From: Selenomonas dianae
GTDB lineage: Bacteria > Bacillota > Negativicutes > Selenomonadales > Selenomonadaceae
Assembly: GCF_030644225.1 (NCBI RefSeq)
Contig: NZ_CP128650.1
Location: 754,001-818,000, forward strand
Reading direction: 5' to 3'
DNA: 64,000 nucleotides
Shown here piece after piece: positions 58,237 to 63,723 of the stretch. Each line of letters begins with the position of its first letter. The stretch's first letter is position 1. The position numbers and the translations under genes are program-made. The notes beneath the pieces are model-generated. The model was not told where the DNA came from, made no database searches, and worked only from the letters and a program-made list of their open reading frames with translations.

Positions 58237-59256
58237 TGTTACACAAGTAAATAAAAAGAGAAAGCCCATTTGTGTTATGCTCTATCTAGCAAAACAAACC
58301 ACACACAAAGGAGGCTTTCTCATGAAAAGCATAACACAGGACATCAAGTATTATCAAGCGATTCTTTCCTATGCAGATCAGCATGGCGTCACAAAGGCTG
58401 CCATTAAGTACCGCACTTATCGCCAGTTCATCTATCGACTGCGTAATCGCTACGATGGTACACCCAAATCCCTCGCACCAAAGTCGCGACGCCCCCATCA
58501 TCACCCCAACGAACACTCCGATCAAGAGATTGCCCTCATTCGGCGGATGCGCAAACGTCGTCCCAATACGGGTCTTGTCCGCTTCTGGGTGCGCCTGCGT
58601 AAAAAGGGGTATACACGCTCCATTGCCGGTCTTTACCGCTGCATGAAACGTCTGGGGCTTAAAACAAGCAAGCCCAAGAAACCTGTATATCAGCCAAAAC
58701 CATATCAGCAGGCAACCTTCCCCGGAGAAAAAGTTCAGATTGATGTCAAAGTCGTTCCCTCCGCCTGCATTGTCGGACAGGCAAAAGAGCAGGGCGAGAA
58801 GATGTACCAATACACAGCGATTGACGAATGTACACGCTTTCGCTTTATTGCGGCATTTAAGGAGCAATCAACATATTCATCCATGCTTTTCCTGCAGCAG
58901 CTCATCCGTCGTTTCCCGTTCAAGATACATAAAGTACAGACAGATAACGGGGCGGAGTTTACCAAGCGTTTCCAAGCGGCGGATGAAGAAAATCTAACGC
59001 TGTTTGAAAAGGAGTTAAAGCGTCTTGGCATTGCACACCAGAAGATTCGCCCCTATACACCGAGGCATAACGGTAAGGTAGAGCGTTCCCACCGAAAGGA
59101 CAACGAGGAGTTTTACGCCACGCATACGTTTTACTCGTTTGAGGATTTCAAGGTGCAGCTTGCACGGAGAAACAGGGAGTATAACAATTTTCCGATGCGT
59201 CCCCTCGGATGGAAGTCTCCTCGTGAGACTCTTTCTCTGCTTCTCTCTTGTGTAAC
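58237..59256 (+). mobile_element. IS481-like insertion sequence (about 1.02 kb)
   Basis: Inverted ends TGTTACACAAG (58237-58247) and CTTGTGTAACA (59246-59256) enclose one transposase gene. Both ends carry ATAT, read either as a 14-bp inverted repeat or as a 4-bp target duplication. TG...CA termini and a single unframeshifted gene fit the IS481 group. Confidence 0.85.
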
Positions 59257-59266
59257 ATATGATTGA
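58322..59266 (+). CDS. IS481-like DDE transposase
   Basis: A 314-residue transposase: N-terminal helix-turn-helix (about 12-45), basic linker, and an RNase H-fold core with D141 (VQIDVKVV), D208 (VQTDNGAEF) and E254 (GKVERSHRKDNE). AAAGGAGG precedes ATG 58322. The stop codon lies 8-10 bases beyond the right inverted repeat, so the last residues are encoded by flanking DNA. It appears intact. Confidence 0.92.
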   Translation: MKSITQDIKYYQAILSYADQHGVTKAAIKYRTYRQFIYRLRNRYDGTPKSLAPKSRRPHHHPNEHSDQEIALIRRMRKRRPNTGLVRFWVRLRKKGYTRSIAGLYRCMKRLGLKTSKPKKPVYQPKPYQQATFPGEKVQIDVKVVPSACIVGQAKEQGEKMYQYTAIDECTRFRFIAAFKEQSTYSSMLFLQQLIRRFPFKIHKVQTDNGAEFTKRFQAADEENLTLFEKELKRLGIAHQKIRPYTPRHNGKVERSHRKDNEEFYATHTFYSFEDFKVQLARRNREYNNFPMRPLGWKSPRETLSLLLSCVTYD

Positions 59267-59301
59267 CAAACCTACAAAAACAAACACCGGTTTCTTTGAT
59301 A

Positions 59302-59363
59302 CAAATTGCATTTCCAACCACGTCGAAATCGACCGGTTTAACCGTGTCGGATGCGAGGCGGTT
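59302..59363 (+). repeat. 62-bp direct repeat, left copy
   Basis: Matches 62655-62716 at 56 of 62 positions, including GTCGAAATCGACC and GTTTAACCGTGTCGGATG. The two copies flank the 3.3-kb block with the type I locus, DUF4258/YgiT, hicAB and integrase. No gene is evident in it. Confidence 0.8.
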
Positions 59364-59391
59364 AGACCGTATAGCGGAATGATCTGAACTA

Positions 59392-59400
59392 TGGTATACT
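59392..59400 (+). promoter_or_regulatory. Promoter of the small hydrophobic peptide
   Basis: TGG-TATACT is an extended -10 element; no clear -35. Transcription would begin near 59407, just before a CCTCCT (59411-59416) able to pair with the ribosome site AGGAGG (59433-59438). Confidence 0.6.
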
Positions 59401-59448
59401 GGATGCGTTGCCTCCTCCATACCGGCACGGGAAGGAGGTGTGTCAAGA

Positions 59449-59523
59449 ATGATCGATTCGTTTATGCTCTCCGTTTTGGCGGGGATAGTCTGCCACTATC
59501 TCTGCAAATGGCTTGACGGATGA
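59449..59523 (+). CDS. Small hydrophobic peptide, candidate type I toxin
   Basis: A 24-codon gene: polar MIDS, hydrophobic core FMLSVLAGIVCHYLC and charged end KWLDG, the layout of membrane-acting type I toxins such as Fst. A very strong Shine-Dalgarno AAGGAGGTG lies 8 bases before the ATG. The start region (59438-59463) is a 23/26 match to a second copy at 59609-59634, which is transcribed in the other direction as the proposed antisense RNA. Fst family membership is not claimed because the hydrophobic core differs. Confidence 0.65.
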   Translation: MIDSFMLSVLAGIVCHYLCKWLDG

Positions 59524-59574
59524 GAAAAAGGCAACAAGCCTAGGTGTTAAACCCTGCCTGCAATATGGGAACAG

Positions 59575-59607
59575 AAAAGCCCCCAAGCTGGAATCTTGGG
59601 GGCTTTT
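59575..59607. terminator. Bidirectional terminator of the type I locus
   Basis: AAAAGCCCCCAAG and CTTGGGGGCTTTT form a perfect 13-bp inverted repeat with A and T tracts, usable from both sides by the peptide mRNA and the convergent RNA. Confidence 0.9.
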
Positions 59608-59637
59608 CGTGTGTCAATTATGATCGCTTCGTTTGCC
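59575..59637 (-). ncRNA. Candidate antitoxin RNA convergent with the small peptide gene
   Basis: A minus-strand promoter, TTGCAT (plus-strand 59668-59673), 18 bases, TGA-TATAAT (hexamer 59644-59649), would start an RNA near 59637. It ends at the 13-bp terminator hairpin 59575-59607, giving about 63 nucleotides. Its 5' half is complementary to the toxin start region through the direct repeat. Size and layout match RNA II of the Enterococcus par locus. Confidence 0.6.
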
Positions 59638-59684
59638 AAGCACATTATATCACAAGTCCCCGATGATATGCAAGTGATATGTTT

Positions 59685-59720
59685 CCGCCTACGATGGCGG
59701 CTTTTTATGCCATTTTTGCG
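59685..59720. repeat. Module-boundary hairpin repeat R1
   Basis: CCGCC-TACGAT-GGCGG followed by CTTTTTATGCCATTTTTGCG. One of four similar units (R1-R4) separating the modules of this island. R1 lies upstream of the candidate antitoxin RNA promoter and downstream of the YgiT-like gene. Confidence 0.75.
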
Positions 59721-59764
59721 GCAGCGATAGAGGAGGATGTTCATGCAGCCTTTTTCGGCGTGTG

Positions 59765-59998
59765 TTATCCAGCAGGGCGATGCTCATAGTTCACAACAGA
59801 CATTTCCGTCGGAGCGTGGCGTAGGGATTCGACAATCTGTTCAAGCACACGGGCAACCTCATCGCTATAGGTGGTATCCCCACACTGGGAGCAGACGTAG
59901 GAAGGAACGTCCTTGATGATAATGATGTGATCTCCGAGGTCAACCATGAACGTGGTTTTTTTCTCCTCAAGCGATCCTTTGCACATAAAGCAGTTCAC
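59765..59998 (-). CDS. YgiT/MqsA-type zinc-finger antitoxin
   Basis: A 77-residue protein with two Cys-x-x-Cys pairs (CFMCKG and CSQCGD) forming the MqsA-type zinc domain, ending in a helix and the tail EHRPAG. The C-terminal DNA-binding HTH of full MqsA is absent. GTG start overlaps the stop of the upstream DUF4258 gene (GTGA). It would neutralise that partner as antitoxin. Confidence 0.82.
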   Translation of the reverse strand: MNCFMCKGSLEEKKTTFMVDLGDHIIIIKDVPSYVCSQCGDTTYSDEVARVLEQIVESLRHAPTEMSVVNYEHRPAG

Positions 59999-60348
59999 TG
60001 TGTTTTCTCCTTTTGTGTCTTTCCGTCGGATTCCCAACGTTCGGGATCCGGATAATAGGCGGTGATGAGATGAAGAGCATCGATGCCGATGCCGCAAACA
60101 ACATGAAGCCATGCATTCTTTACCGTCACGCCGAAGATCAGATAGCTTGGATGTGGATAGTCTTCGGGATAACGCTCGATAATTTCGCCCGTTTCAAGCG
60201 CGTGCGTCACATCGTCGATGGATACGCCGCGTTGAAAGAGACGCAGAAGTATGTGATTCGTCCATTGGAGGTTATGCGTGGAACATCGCTCTTGAATCGT
60301 TTTCAGTATGGCGGTATCTTTTGCACGGTCAAAGTCGAATATGTCCAT
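59995..60348 (-). CDS. DUF4258 protein, probable MqsR-like toxin
   Basis: A 117-residue DUF4258 protein with the pattern WTNHILLRLFQRGVSIDDV, a central IIERYPEDYPHPSYLIFG and LHVVCGI. DUF4258 proteins paired with YgiT zinc fingers are annotated as RNase-type toxins; the His of TNHILLR is a plausible active-site residue. First gene of the pair. AAGGAAG precedes the ATG; repeat R2 lies just upstream. Confidence 0.8.
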   Translation of the reverse strand: MDIFDFDRAKDTAILKTIQERCSTHNLQWTNHILLRLFQRGVSIDDVTHALETGEIIERYPEDYPHPSYLIFGVTVKNAWLHVVCGIGIDALHLITAYYPDPERWESDGKTQKEKTQ

Positions 60349-60363
60349 ACCGCTTCCTTCCTA

Positions 60364-60390
60364 CCGCCTACGATGGCGGCTTTTTATGCC
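60364..60390. repeat. Module-boundary hairpin repeat R2
   Basis: CCGCC-TACGAT-GGCGG then CTTTTTATGCC; lacks the final ATTTTTGCG of the other units. It separates the DUF4258/YgiT pair from hicAB. Confidence 0.75.
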
Positions 60391-60420
60391 CTCCAACCAT
60401 CCGAGAGAAAGTGGTGCACA

Positions 60421-60831
60421 TCAAGACTGGACAGAAAGCCTCTCGCGCAATGCAGTTTGCAGAATCTGTGAGAAATTGAGCCGCTGACGCTCGGCAAGTT
60501 CGTTGAGATACCACGGGATTGTCAGCGTCTTTTTCACGGGGCGGTTGTTCATCTCGGCGCGCATGGAAAACATATTCGCATCAAGGAGACAGAGAACATC
60601 GCCCTGCTTCGTTGAAAGTGTGTCAAATGCGCTGGGCTGCGGGATGGTCTCGCCGTCCTGCTCGATTCCCCAGAGATGCAGAGCAAGCCCCTCTTTTGCG
60701 GCGGCAAAGGCTTCGTCTGCGGTCGCTCCTGTTGCAATGCAGCCGGGCAGGTCGGGGAAGTACACACCGTAATGTCCGTTTGTCTTTTGCAGAATAGCGG
60801 GGTAGGTATAGCTATCGGGAAGATGTGCCAT
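60421..60831 (-). CDS. hicB: HicB-family antitoxin
   Basis: A 136-residue antitoxin with the HicB RNase H-like domain (GHYGVYFPDLPGCIATGATADEA, about 17-60) and a C-terminal ribbon-helix-helix-type DNA-binding part (TIPWYLNELAERQRLNFSQIL). It binds HicA and represses the operon. ATG 60831 has AAGGAGG upstream. Lies 13 bases after hicA. Confidence 0.93.
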   Translation of the reverse strand: MAHLPDSYTYPAILQKTNGHYGVYFPDLPGCIATGATADEAFAAAKEGLALHLWGIEQDGETIPQPSAFDTLSTKQGDVLCLLDANMFSMRAEMNNRPVKKTLTIPWYLNELAERQRLNFSQILQTALRERLSVQS

Positions 60832-60844
60832 TGTATATACCTCC

Positions 60845-61045
60845 TTAACGGTCAAGTAATCCTGCTTGCGTCAAAATGGATTTCTCTATGTCGGGGGAAA
60901 CATCATCACTCTCACGATGTCCCGAGATCGTGACGCGTCCCGGTTTTGTCGGATGCTTGAATTGGCGATGTGAACCTCTTTGCGCAACGAGTTTCCAACC
61001 ATCTGCTTTGATGATGCATAAAAGATCACGCACTTTTCTCGGCAT
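60845..61045 (-). CDS. hicA: HicA-family mRNA interferase toxin
   Basis: A 66-residue toxin with the double-stranded RNA-binding-like fold. The catalytic histidine is in GSHRQFKHP, with the typical start RDLLCIIKADGWKL and the VTISGH segment. AGGAGGA precedes the ATG. Toxin first, antitoxin second, the usual hicAB order. Confidence 0.93.
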   Translation of the reverse strand: MPRKVRDLLCIIKADGWKLVAQRGSHRQFKHPTKPGRVTISGHRESDDVSPDIEKSILTQAGLLDR

Positions 61046-61060
61046 AAGGATTCCTCCTAC

Positions 61061-61090
61061 ATAATACTACACGTAGAAAGTACGTGTAAA
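61061..61090 (-). promoter_or_regulatory. hicAB promoter with internal operator
   Basis: On the minus strand TTTACA, 18 bases, TATTAT. The spacer contains a perfect dyad ACACGTA-ctttc-TACGTGT (61069-61087) that also touches the -35, well placed for repression by HicB. Confidence 0.75.
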
Positions 61091-61099
61091 TAGATCCAA

Positions 61100-61136
61100 C
61101 CGCCTACGATGGCAACTTTTTTATGCCATTTTTGCG
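61100..61136. repeat. Module-boundary hairpin repeat R3
   Basis: CCGCC-TACGAT-GGC (stem weakened by two changes), then CTTTTTTATGCCATTTTTGCG. It lies upstream of the hicAB promoter. Confidence 0.7.
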
Positions 61137-61231
61137 GCGGCGTTTCCAGAGGAGGAGGCTGACGCAGCCTCTTTTTCTGCGATGAGTTCGGCACGATAGG
61201 CGGCTACGTCAGCTTCGATTTCCTCAAAGCT
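61121..61231 (-). pseudogene. C-terminal remnant of an unidentified gene
   Basis: A minus-strand frame without start reads SFEEIEADVAAYRAEL, then an Ala/Ser-rich tail ending NAAAKMA and TAA inside R3. A degraded version (SSSIAAAKMA with an upstream stop) precedes R1, and R4 also begins with AKMA-stop. These look like tails of a once-shared gene carried with the repeat. Confidence 0.4.
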
Positions 61232-61280
61232 TTATAATTAGCACTTGCTAAAAGTCAAAAAAACAAATAAAACAGAACGA

Positions 61281-61311
61281 AAGCCCTTGAACCCTTGAGA
61301 TACAAGGGCTT
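61281..61311 (-). terminator. Hairpin downstream of the second integrase
   Basis: AAGCCCTTG and CAAGGGCTT form a 9-bp stem; on the minus strand T-rich sequence follows at a distance. It may be the integrase terminator and/or part of an attachment region. No second copy was found in the window. Confidence 0.5.
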
Positions 61312-61330
61312 ACAGAACTGCATTTATGGA

Positions 61331-61367
61331 TTTGTCTACCGTTTGTCTACCGTATCACTTGCCTACA
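61331..61367 (+). promoter_or_regulatory. Arm-type site triplet beside the second integrase
   Basis: TTTGTCTACC at 61331, TTTGTCTACC at 61342 and a variant CTTGCCTAC near 61358, the same spacing and order as the triplet at 26813-26848. Confidence 0.6.
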
Positions 61368-62518
61368 ATGCCGTCGAAGATACGCGCAGTCTCTCTCTTC
61401 ATATTGTCTGTATCATGCGCATAGAGATTCTGCGTAATGGTTGCATCCGCATGACCGAGACGCGCTGCGACATCAACGGGCTTCGCGCCGGCTTCGATGA
61501 GACGGGTTGCGTGGGTATGGCGGAAGCTGTGTGAATTCAGATGGAGCGGCTGCAAGATTCGCTTGATGTGATCGTAGCGATAGGGCACGCCGTTCGGTTT
61601 GAGACAGACAAGTGTGCGGCGGATATAACCTGCAGGCGGAGGCAGCTTCTTCGGCAGAAGAACAAGGCTGCGCCTGTCCCGTGTATCCTCGTAGGCGAGC
61701 TGATACGCCTCACCGAGACGCATCTCATCCGCCGCCTGTACTGACTTGAGCGTGCGCAGATAGGCGAGAAGAACAGAATCCGCATAGAAGGTGCGCTCAC
61801 TCGTATCCGTTTTTGGTGTCTCAAAATAGCTGGTGTAGAGAAGTTGACGCTCAATGGAGATTTCCCCCGTCGAAAGGTTAATATCGTCCCATGTGAGACC
61901 GAACACCTCGCTGATTCGCATCCCCGTGTGATACAGAATCTTGAGCGCGCCGTAGTATTTGCAGGTTGGCGGGATGGCGGCGAACTGCTCCGAGGAGATC
62001 ACCGTACGCATCCTGACCTTACGCGGGGCGCTCTTTGGGATAGAGATCCCCGTTGCCGGATTCGCTGAGATAAGCTCAGCAGGATAGACGGCGTACTTCA
62101 TCGCCATAGAGAGAATCGCCTTTGCAAGGTGAATCGTCTTATAGGCGTAGCCCTTCTTTGCGAGTTCACGCAGCCATACATCCACATTGCGCGGTCGGAT
62201 GTCCTGCACATTCAGATCACCAAGGTAGGGGAGAATGCGTGCGCGGGCGGTGCTCTCGTATGAGCTATAGGTGCTGCGCTTGAGATTCGCCTGCATGACA
62301 TTTTCAAGCCATGCGGTGAGATAGTCACGCAGCTTCACGCGCTCCGACGTGATACCAATATTGCCGCTTTTCCAGTCGGCATAGGCTTTGATACCTGCCT
62401 CTCGTGCATCCTTTTCGTTGACATAGCCTCCTTTCTCCTTCATGCGGCGTGGGTTTCTTCCAATCTCGAAACTGTACGAGAATGTATTTCCACGCTTGCG
62501 TATGCGTATCTTGGACAT
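61355..62518 (-). CDS. Second tyrosine integrase
   Basis: A 387-residue integrase closely related to the prophage enzyme: arm-binding domain, LRDYLTAWLENVM core-binding segment, catalytic GMRISEV (Arg), HSFRHTH and GHADATITQNLYAHD (Tyr). ATG 62518 follows AAGGAGG, which can pair with an upstream CCTCCTT. No att repeat pair or phage genes accompany it in the window, so it may belong to an eroded element or a small integrative island. Confidence 0.93.
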   Translation of the reverse strand: MSKIRIRKRGNTFSYSFEIGRNPRRMKEKGGYVNEKDAREAGIKAYADWKSGNIGITSERVKLRDYLTAWLENVMQANLKRSTYSSYESTARARILPYLGDLNVQDIRPRNVDVWLRELAKKGYAYKTIHLAKAILSMAMKYAVYPAELISANPATGISIPKSAPRKVRMRTVISSEQFAAIPPTCKYYGALKILYHTGMRISEVFGLTWDDINLSTGEISIERQLLYTSYFETPKTDTSERTFYADSVLLAYLRTLKSVQAADEMRLGEAYQLAYEDTRDRRSLVLLPKKLPPPAGYIRRTLVCLKPNGVPYRYDHIKRILQPLHLNSHSFRHTHATRLIEAGAKPVDVAARLGHADATITQNLYAHDTDNMKRETARIFDGIVGK

Positions 62519-62536
62519 AAATAAAACCTCCTTGTG

Positions 62537-62637
62537 TTTACAAAGGAGGCGAATCATGGTAGTATGTAAGTGCAATAGGGCATGATTCGCGTCATGTCTG
62601 CCGCTCGGTGTTGGTAGCACCGAGCGGCTTTTGTTTG
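62537..62637 (+). ncRNA. Two-hairpin structure opposite the second integrase leader
   Basis: A perfect 10-bp dyad GCGAATCATG (62549-62558)/CATGATTCGC (62581-62590) is followed by CCGCTCGGTG (62601)/CACCGAGCGG (62618) and CTTTTGTTT. A plus-strand promoter TTTACA (62537), 17 bases, TAGTAT (62560) could start a short RNA near 62572. The layout parallels 28075-28181, though the sequences differ. Confidence 0.5.
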
Positions 62638-62654
62638 CATTTTGCCGACGTTGG

Positions 62655-62716
62655 CAAATTGCATTTTTAACCTCGTCGAAATCGACCAGTTTAACCGTGT
62701 CGGATGTGAGGCAGTT
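62655..62716 (+). repeat. 62-bp direct repeat, right copy
   Basis: Partner of 59302-59363. It lies just upstream of the integrase leader structure and next to the end of the small exported protein gene. Confidence 0.8.
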
Positions 62717-62719
62717 CGG

Positions 62720-62941
62720 TCACGGCTCACAAACACCACAGGGTTCATAACCGTCGGCAATAGCCTCATCACGCGAACCGTAGTGAACAAAGTGCGGCGC
62801 ATCGGGGTGTTTGATCGTACGGCAATCCGCATAGTGGAACTTGCCCGACTTTGTGTTTGCGAGGTAATCTGATGCAAGCGTGGGCGTGGCGATGGACAGA
62901 GCCATAGCCGCGACAGTTGCGAGGGCGATTTTTTTCAGCAT
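62720..62941 (-). CDS. Small exported protein with a Cys/His domain
   Basis: A 73-residue protein: signal peptide (MLKKIALATVAAMALSIA, cleavage likely after TLAS) and a mature domain of about 50 residues with FHYADCRTIKH and DGYEPCGVCEP. This is the small motif found in many secreted proteins and nucleases of Bacillota, with three cysteines and His residues that may bind metal. AGGAGG precedes the ATG. Function unknown. Confidence 0.75.
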   Translation of the reverse strand: MLKKIALATVAAMALSIATPTLASDYLANTKSGKFHYADCRTIKHPDAPHFVHYGSRDEAIADGYEPCGVCEP

Positions 62942-62999
62942 ATACAATCCTCCTAAAAATCTCGTACGGGAAGGACTCCGGCAAGAAAAACGATGAAAC

Positions 63000-63037
63000 A
63001 AATGACCCGTATGACGATAACGCCATACGGGTCATTT
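63000..63037. terminator. Bidirectional terminator-like hairpin
   Basis: AAATGACCCGTATG and CATACGGGTCATTT form a perfect 14-bp stem with short A/T tracts, between the MazF-like gene and the small exported protein gene. Confidence 0.75.
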
Positions 63038-63120
63038 CTTATGCTCTCGTGGAGCATGAATCAGATGTTGCGGCTCATGACCGCTTTGTATCTGCATTAT
63101 AACCCGTATAAACCACTTTG

Positions 63121-63723
63121 TCAATTTTCAAAGAACAACAACTGAATTTTATCCTGTATGGAGGTCATTGCAGAAGCGGATAAACATTCACCTGCCAAAT
63201 AATCCCTTGCCTTTGTTGGCGTAATGATTCGCATTTTGCTGATCGTACACATCTGTCCGACATCAGCAATCGTCTCATCGTACATATCGGCAGTGGTGTG
63301 GTTATGTCGGTTGAGAATATCCTTGACCTCTGTCCCGATATTGACCGTGTAGATGGAGAGATAGCGCGTATCTTTTCCCTTGTTGCTGCGCAGAGGGACA
63401 ACCGTCAGTTGATTGTTATGCTTTGAACTCCGTACATCCATCACAACCGCATAATGCGCCCCGCCAAGCTCACTGCCGATACGATAACCGAAATCGACGA
63501 GAATCACCTGACCGCGCCGATAGTTGATGTTATAGTTCGGGCGAAAACGCTGCTCATTCAGCTGATAGGAAAGATATTTACCGAGCCACAAGATAAAGAT
63601 GGCGGCTTTTTTGTAGTTGGATCTCAGTTGGTCATGGATATAATGATAGTATCGGCGCAGCGTCTGCGAACGCAGTCTTATGAGATGAACTCGATTGTTC
63701 GGGTCTTTATAGTCCATCATCAT
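63121..63723 (-). CDS. PemK/MazF-family toxin with N-terminal extension
   Basis: A 200-residue protein. The MazF-like fold starts at about 70 (RRGQVILVDFGYRIGSELGGAHYAVVM, then LTVVPLRS and a late MRIITPTKARD). About 65 residues of basic helical sequence precede it. MazF enzymes cut RNA at short sequences. No antitoxin gene is adjacent, a situation seen for this longer PemK-like subgroup. Three ATGs in a row (63723, 63720, 63717) follow AGGAAGG; the exact start is uncertain. Confidence 0.8.
   Translation of the reverse strand: MMMDYKDPNNRVHLIRLRSQTLRRYYHYIHDQLRSNYKKAAIFILWLGKYLSYQLNEQRFRPNYNINYRRGQVILVDFGYRIGSELGGAHYAVVMDVRSSKHNNQLTVVPLRSNKGKDTRYLSIYTVNIGTEVKDILNRHNHTTADMYDETIADVGQMCTISKMRIITPTKARDYLAGECLSASAMTSIQDKIQLLFFEN

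Follow-up and report, generated by a model that had tools for sequence, protein, structure and literature searches.

Within the window, a 64,000-nucleotide stretch of the Selenomonas dianae genome, a locus of about 280 bases (positions 59392–59673; 813392–813673 of the 2.39-Mb single-contig genome) raises two questions: is it a type I toxin-antitoxin system organized like par of Enterococcus, and does its peptide stand with Fst or in a family of its own? A preliminary description had proposed the par-like reading and, because the peptide core seemed unlike Fst, had suggested an undescribed type I family. Comparison with relatives strongly supports the first proposal, through co-diverging repeats, predicted duplexes, covariation and antisense promoters; the second did not hold. 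We consider it highly probable that the locus is a par-type type I system, in which a predicted antisense RNA blocks translation of a putative toxic membrane peptide, as in Enterococcus par. The signals and their co-evolution are established at the level of sequence; what they appear to compose is an intact-looking, so far unannotated locus of the already known par/Fst kind, in an under-annotated clade.

Anatomy of the locus

From left to right, the first half of the locus consists of an extended −10 element, a GTTGCC arm, a CCTCC anti-Shine-Dalgarno sequence, the Shine-Dalgarno sequence, the first copy of a direct repeat and the toxin ORF. The ORF is followed by a GGCAAC arm, a AGCCTAGG-like stretch, a symmetric terminator, the second repeat copy and an antisense −10/−35 pair (Table 1). 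The elements on which the preliminary description relied are all in place: the hydrophobic 24-residue peptide with its strong Shine-Dalgarno sequence, the upstream CCTCCT that could mask this site (CCTCC pairs with GGAGG at 59434–59438 in the minimum-free-energy fold), a convergent promoter from which a ~63-nt RNA is predicted, the perfect terminator shared by both strands, and the direct repeat.

Table 1. Predicted parts of the locus, in window coordinates.
Feature	Position	Strand	Basis
Toxin promoter, extended −10 TGG TATACT, no clear −35	59392–59400	+	sequence
RNA I, predicted toxin mRNA, ~200 nt	59405–59607	+	inferred from promoter and terminator
5′ arm of long-range upstream helix (5′-UH)	59407–59413	+	fold, covariation
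CCTCC masking the Shine-Dalgarno sequence (5′-SL)	59414–59418	+	fold
Shine-Dalgarno sequence AAGGAGG	59432–59438	+	sequence
Direct repeat, toxin-start copy, spans the start codon	59438–59463	+	identity and cross-locus covariation
Toxin ORF, 24 codons, MIDSFMLSVLAGIVCHYLCKWLDG	59449–59523	+	sequence, dN<dS
3′ arm of the 5′-UH helix	59529–59535	+	fold, covariation
Shared bidirectional terminator, 14-bp stem, 7-nt loop CTGGAAT	59574–59608	.	sequence, comparison
RNA II, predicted antisense antitoxin RNA, ~63 nt	59575–59637	−	inferred from promoter and terminator
Antitoxin copy of the direct repeat, where RNA II would pair with the toxin start	59609–59634	−	identity, comparison
Antitoxin promoter, −10 TATAAT (59649–59644), −35-like TTGCAT (59673–59668), spacer 18	59644–59673	−	sequence

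The longest toxin reading frame opens at GTG 59440. Because this codon begins only 1 nt after the Shine-Dalgarno sequence, it was ruled out as the start, and ATG 59449 is the more likely one. At the place of the toxin −10 element, 20 of 21 loci from the genus have TATACT and one has TATACC (by eye), and no −35 element was recognizable for this promoter in the locus sequence. The terminator loop carries a YUNR element, CTGG, on the toxin strand.

The two copies of the direct repeat are identical at 23 of 26 positions. None of 300 letter shuffles of both segments reached 23 matches (the best had 17), and no other pair with at least 23/26 identity at a spacing of 100–300 occurs in the window, which rules out a chance repeat. 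A general promoter/terminator scan of the region revealed no excess of signals; it omits both the antisense promoter, whose TTGCAT has three of the six letters of the scan's consensus, and the terminator, with its T run of only 4. The case for the locus therefore rests on comparison with relatives.

RNA I folds at −75.2 kcal/mol (z −2.82), and the two 5′ helices and the terminator are recovered by folding alone; RNA II folds at −22.4 kcal/mol (z −4.21). The long-range upstream helix, present in the minimum-free-energy fold of RNA I, was absent from the preliminary description.

Co-divergence of repeats and conserved structure among relatives

The S. dianae genome itself contains five copies of the locus, and a search across the genus identified 21 loci in 10 of 14 genomes, S. 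dianae included; one of these genomes (G004) appears to be S. infelix, as three of its peptides are found again in loci of strain ATCC 43532 of that species. The preliminary description had regarded homologues lacking the paired direct repeats as evidence against its reading. Instead, the toxin start recurs in 19 of the 21 loci, its second copy starting 90–107 nt past the WLD codons. The aligned second-copy stretch is only 17 nt long in L012, and L019 has just 8 matching bases. The repeats change together from copy to copy: L001, L006, L007 and L015 carry a distinct version apiece, found at both places. For the five S. dianae copies, the predicted duplexes between toxin start and cognate RNA II range from −30.7 to −51.8 kcal/mol, versus −10.4 to −28.8 kcal/mol for the 20 non-cognate combinations. 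Between L001 and its paralogue L005, identity is 83–84% in the outer parts and the terminator, 68–75% in the ORF and leader, and 62% and 64% in the repeat copies.

One S. dianae copy, L004 (contig C1, ORF 2101856–2101921), had looked like an orphan toxin without antitoxin. This reading proved wrong: an insert of ~160 nt separates the ORF from the terminator, and beyond this insert come the terminator, the repeat and the antisense −10 region (the predicted cognate duplex is still strong, −41.8). The short-pattern search that the orphan reading had prompted returned 98 matches with at most two mismatches versus 93 in the reversed control, i.e. background.

Co-divergence was then assessed in a set of 122 loci with 117 distinct peptides, 19 from this genus and 103 from elsewhere. 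The set was reduced from 180 pattern matches by removing 6 long ORFs, 3 matches short of flank, 44 identical copies (whole or core), one sequence with N and four caught by other filters; related but non-identical loci were retained, and classic Fst peptides were excluded by construction of the pattern. Loci were treated as dissimilar if they shared less than 75% identity over the 38-nt start region. In 97 of the 122 loci, the cognate repeat after the terminator matched the toxin start better than the repeat of every dissimilar locus, against a mean of 1.84 and a maximum of 7 in 200 runs with permuted partners. The terminator hairpin scored at least 15 in 101 of the loci, and the cognate repeat was best in 89 of the 101 loci with a clear terminator and in 8 of the other 21. 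The 25 loci in which it was not best comprise 12 with and 13 without a clear terminator; L004 counts among the 13 for the sole reason that the range searched stopped short of its terminator and repeat. An antisense promoter matching at least 9 of 12 positions stands at the expected place in 87 of the 101 clear-terminator loci, whereas shuffles would yield 9.35. YUNR is found in the terminator loop of only 16 of these 101; according to Weaver's review, this U-turn motif in the loop of RNA I is not universal in the par family (PMC7472228). Recent conversion between the two repeat sites could mimic co-divergence within one locus. Across so many diverged loci, however, selection for pairing would be the simpler reading of the sequences.

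Compensatory changes were examined in an alignment of 16 sequences from the genus, with columns numbered after L001. The upstream helix (helix 1) is paired in 96.4% of cells and has changes on both sides at four of its seven pairs; the main terminator helix is paired in 90.7%, with such changes at 6 of 12 pairs. In the Shine-Dalgarno-masking helix (helix 2), 83.8% of cells are paired and only one of five pairs has changed on both sides. For the whole structure, 51 cells changed on both sides, compared with 18.5 in shuffles, none of the 500 equalling the observed count, and no more than 25 when the structure was slid; the number of further pair types was not in excess (27 versus 28.0 in shuffles). 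A small helix 3 at alignment columns 18–27 was rejected as unsupported, with 37.5% of cells paired. The toxin ORF shows coding selection as well: across 13 loci of the genus and the 17 codons up to WLD, dN was lower than dS in all 52 usable pairs (of 78, with 26 dropped for saturated or undefined dS), a signal that may include constraint from RNA structure.

In the mechanism that we propose, RNA I would be transcribed rightward and would encode a 24-residue peptide, presumably spanning the membrane once. Its ribosome-binding site would be hidden by the local stem, and its 5′ end would be tied up by the long-range helix. RNA II (~63 nt) would be transcribed leftward, through the repeat's second copy and on into the shared terminator. 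Its pairing with RNA I would start at the terminator loop, extend next to the toxin start and so block translation. Should RNA II drop, because the element is lost or under stress, the peptide would be made and the membrane harmed. Since the repeats diverge together, the antitoxin of each copy would be specific to its own toxin, so that several copies could coexist in one genome.

Placement of the peptide relative to Fst, SpF66 and C. difficile toxins

In searches against Pfam and NCBIfam, the window peptide had no Pfam match and matched no Fst profile (PF13955, NF033608), which explains why it had seemed unlike Fst; over the whole S. dianae genome, the Pfam and NCBI Fst models likewise had no match. 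The view that the core is unlike Fst is nonetheless not supported, in the light of three observations: the Fst/Ldr register is kept, the locus matches SpF66, and one CKWLD relative scores high enough for the NCBI Fst model. As for the register, Weaver's review describes the Fst/Ldr superfamily as having a tryptophan between the membrane helix and a charged tail, most members with P/D/S/TxxxG (PMC7472228). The window peptide has SVLAG, eight residues and then W-L, with W21 as the conserved tryptophan. The pattern P/D/S/TxxxG-8-W-L fits 74 of the 122 loci strictly and 121 if A is allowed at the first and S/A/N/E at the last position, W-L having been part of how the loci were picked; similarly, invariance of the tryptophan in alignments A1 and A4 is no test because W stood in the patterns used to pick the peptides. 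At least two charged residues follow WL in 114 of the 122 loci. The window peptide ends in KWLDG, with one charged residue after WL, and is thus filed as a relative, not a proven member, of the Fst/Ldr superfamily. The CKWLD relative L198 reaches 27.7–29.1 bits with the NCBI Fst model, whose cut-off is 26; L026, which joins PIIAG to CKWLD, stays under it at 19.8 bits.

The DNA of the locus matches the Rfam family SpF66 (RF02442) from end to end at 36.3 bits, below the gathering threshold of 42. Its consensus encodes MSLILELVLTIIADVIAGIILYFVCKWLDGKE, with a CKWLD-type ending ...ADVIAGIILYFVCKWLDGKE, and this peptide in turn scores 18.9 bits against the NCBI Fst profile (cut-off 26). Among 299 genomes of the phylum, the SpF66 model had matches at E≤0.001 in six, none over its cut-off; the S. 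dianae genome is one of them, with four of its five loci. From its name, we infer that Rfam SpF66 is the published F66 of S. pneumoniae, which is the same as srn502 and Spd_sr109 (PMC4387999, PMC12323649). The literature gives Spd_sr109 as a toxin mRNA whose antitoxin is Srf-27, homologous to par and in the Fst family (PMC6212727, PMC9812572); that its peptide is SPV_2448 follows from the order of the published list. F66 presumably corresponds to the DxxxG pneumococcal clade mentioned in Weaver's review (PMC7472228). An undescribed family was rejected once the SpF66 match had been traced to this published Fst-family system.

F66 is among the closest known systems: its sequence-and-structure model covers the whole locus, and both peptides are of the CKWLD type; they differ in that F66 has DxxxG where the window peptide has SxxxG, and in that the F66 peptide is longer and streptococcal. 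With par of the E. faecalis plasmid pAD1, going by its description in the same review (PMC7472228), the locus shares convergent promoters, a bidirectional terminator and direct repeats at the toxin start, as well as the 5′-SL, the 5′-UH and the YUNR loop. Unlike the pAD1 peptide, that of the window has neither PxxxG nor the charged tail, and RNA II would be ~63 nt rather than ~40 nt long. Fst loci from the same bacterial family, retrieved with PF13955 or NF033608 (L035–L037, L192 and L194–L197, L193 being L035 again), have by eye the same order of Shine-Dalgarno sequence, ORF, symmetric terminator and, after it, a repeat copy; their peptides are instead of the APLIVG...YWLNH type, and a AGCCTAGG-like stretch after the ORF was not seen in them, again by eye.

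An unlikely alternative, which would differ in ancestry only, is an independent CKWLD family that has the par-like architecture without homology to Fst and perhaps stands closer to the type I toxins of C. difficile. It would accord with the missing Fst profile match of the window peptide, with the weak profile-profile score between CKWLD and five closely alike local Fst peptides (probability 12.7, E 0.0023), and with the 32 CKWLD peptides of alignment A4, of which 18 match NF047374 at E≤0.1 (best E 0.00028) and only 8 match Fst. Yet the motif register is shared with Fst and the profile-profile alignment is ungapped, L198 has CKWLD and scores 29.1 bits with the NCBI Fst model, L026 carries PIIAG together with CKWLD though below the cut-off, and the Fst-positive loci of the same bacterial family share the locus layout by eye. 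The C. difficile systems (CD2517.1-RCd8 and relatives), as reviewed in PMC6563280, have toxins of 50–53 residues and antisense RNAs with a long overlap along which they pair; neither bidirectional terminators nor direct repeats came up when that review was searched by term. Membership of the window peptide in the C. difficile family was rejected: its match to NF047374, over the membrane segment, has an E-value of 0.016 and 15.6 bits, with a cut-off of 60. The weak matches of the A4 peptides to this model may also point to a link of the C. difficile type I toxins to Fst/Ldr.

Genomic context, function and distribution

To the left, the locus adjoins a transposase gene (rve). On its right, on the minus strand, an ORF lacking any Pfam match is followed by DUF4258, HicB, HicA and a phage integrase, with PemK beyond them. 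The paralogue L005 is situated between a two-piece integrase and ORFs that resemble ImmA/IrrE and a phage repressor (by eye). Judged from context only, the likely role of the locus is to stabilize mobile or prophage DNA. The homology of L006, L007, L015 and L020 to the window starts at 59379–59386 and stops at 59674–59727; the module is therefore close to the predicted two-promoter unit. Other matches of these four copies to the window are separate pieces, e.g. an integrase fragment in L006. L005 is the exception, its match spanning 59302 to ~59714.

The peptide might instead be a small antisense-regulated membrane peptide that acts as a signal or regulator and is not toxic. We regard this as improbable, even though the toxin mRNA of the pneumococcal relative is reported to exceed its antitoxin RNA even without stress (PMC9812572): the regulatory anatomy of par is complete, the antisense specificity co-evolves, toxin-antitoxin genes are neighbours, the relatives are classed as toxins, and the apparent orphan L004 has its antisense part after all. 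That the locus is an inactive relic or a chance assembly of signals, as the adjoining transposase and repeated DNA and the unremarkable general scan could suggest, is scarcely credible given intact signals, dN below dS in every usable pair, a repeat that is unique at its spacing in the window and the same module in other genomes.

Several features of the surrounding DNA were recorded on their own account. The window contains a cluster of selfish or defence-type genes at 58277–63723 (transposase, DUF4258 with an adjacent ORF lacking Pfam matches, HicAB, phage integrase and PemK-like toxin). A 62-nt repeat, 90% identical between its copies, lies at 59302–59363 before the toxin cassette and at 62655–62716 beside the start of the phage integrase; a third genomic copy (C1:200010) precedes L005, between the integrase and the cassette. 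The repeat is possibly an attachment site or an integrase leader. No empty site was found for it; six other genomes of the genus share only the gene at ~62730–62943 with that end. A terminator-like sequence of 27 nt, CCGCCTACGATGGCGGCTTTTTATGCC, has exact copies at 59685–59711, 60364–60390 and C1:200392, with none elsewhere in the genome at up to three mismatches; two of the three stand just after type I cassettes.

Within the bacterial family, the A1 profile detected the clade at E≤0.001 in 97 of the 151 genomes searched. The NCBI Fst model matched 14 of these genomes, 7 over its cut-off, one of the 7 through the CKWLD peptide L198. It is this scale that is new: the clade in 97 of 151 genomes, versus 7 in which the NCBI Fst cut-off is reached. 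In a sample of the phylum the clade is uncommon (12 of 299 genomes at E≤0.01; Pfam Fst, 1 of 299). A collection of species genomes yielded at least 591 stretches fitting the pattern, at least 441 of them confirmed, and, judging by record titles, the 80 kept among the listed confirmed matches are mostly from Lachnospiraceae and other Clostridia. Viral contigs gave 113 candidates, of which 27 were confirmed. Peptide matches were found in 21 of 72,556 plasmid records, with no listed gene beneath any of the 21 in a gene table that is incomplete, and in 8 of 50,697 phage records, where three places are annotated as 'hypothetical protein', one as 'DNA binding protein', one is featureless and three records are unannotated. 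Within the open-licence literature, we found no pertinent paper on CKWLD peptides, type I toxin-antitoxin systems of Negativicutes, Fst of Selenomonas or Fst-like toxins of Lachnospiraceae.

We tentatively suggest, as a possibility short of an even chance, that CKWLD marks a large toxin clade of its own, little annotated, in Clostridia, Negativicutes and the phages of both, which travels as exchangeable cassettes of ~300 bp whose peptide and antisense address co-diverge. If this were true, genomes would carry mutually insulated type I modules, five here and four in tandem elsewhere. In any case, the co-diverging repeats supply ready-made series of cognate and non-cognate antisense pairs on which type I antitoxin specificity could be probed directly.

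Some arrangements among the relatives deserve separate mention. In L025/L150 (G208:C23), four CKWLD loci are arranged in tandem at intervals of ~400 bp, and all four have a terminator and a matching repeat of their own. In L022 (ORF at ~1677–1851), an intact cassette is followed by a second copy of the ORF tail (ICKWLDRDE) and terminator without the usual start, resembling the remnant of a partial tandem duplication. In L035 (G284:C10, positions 491–580 and ~1002–1076), a match to the skipping-rope RNA (56.4 bits; gathering threshold, 36.7) lies upstream of a KWLD-type ORF, and a classic Fst ORF comes ~400 nt after the latter.
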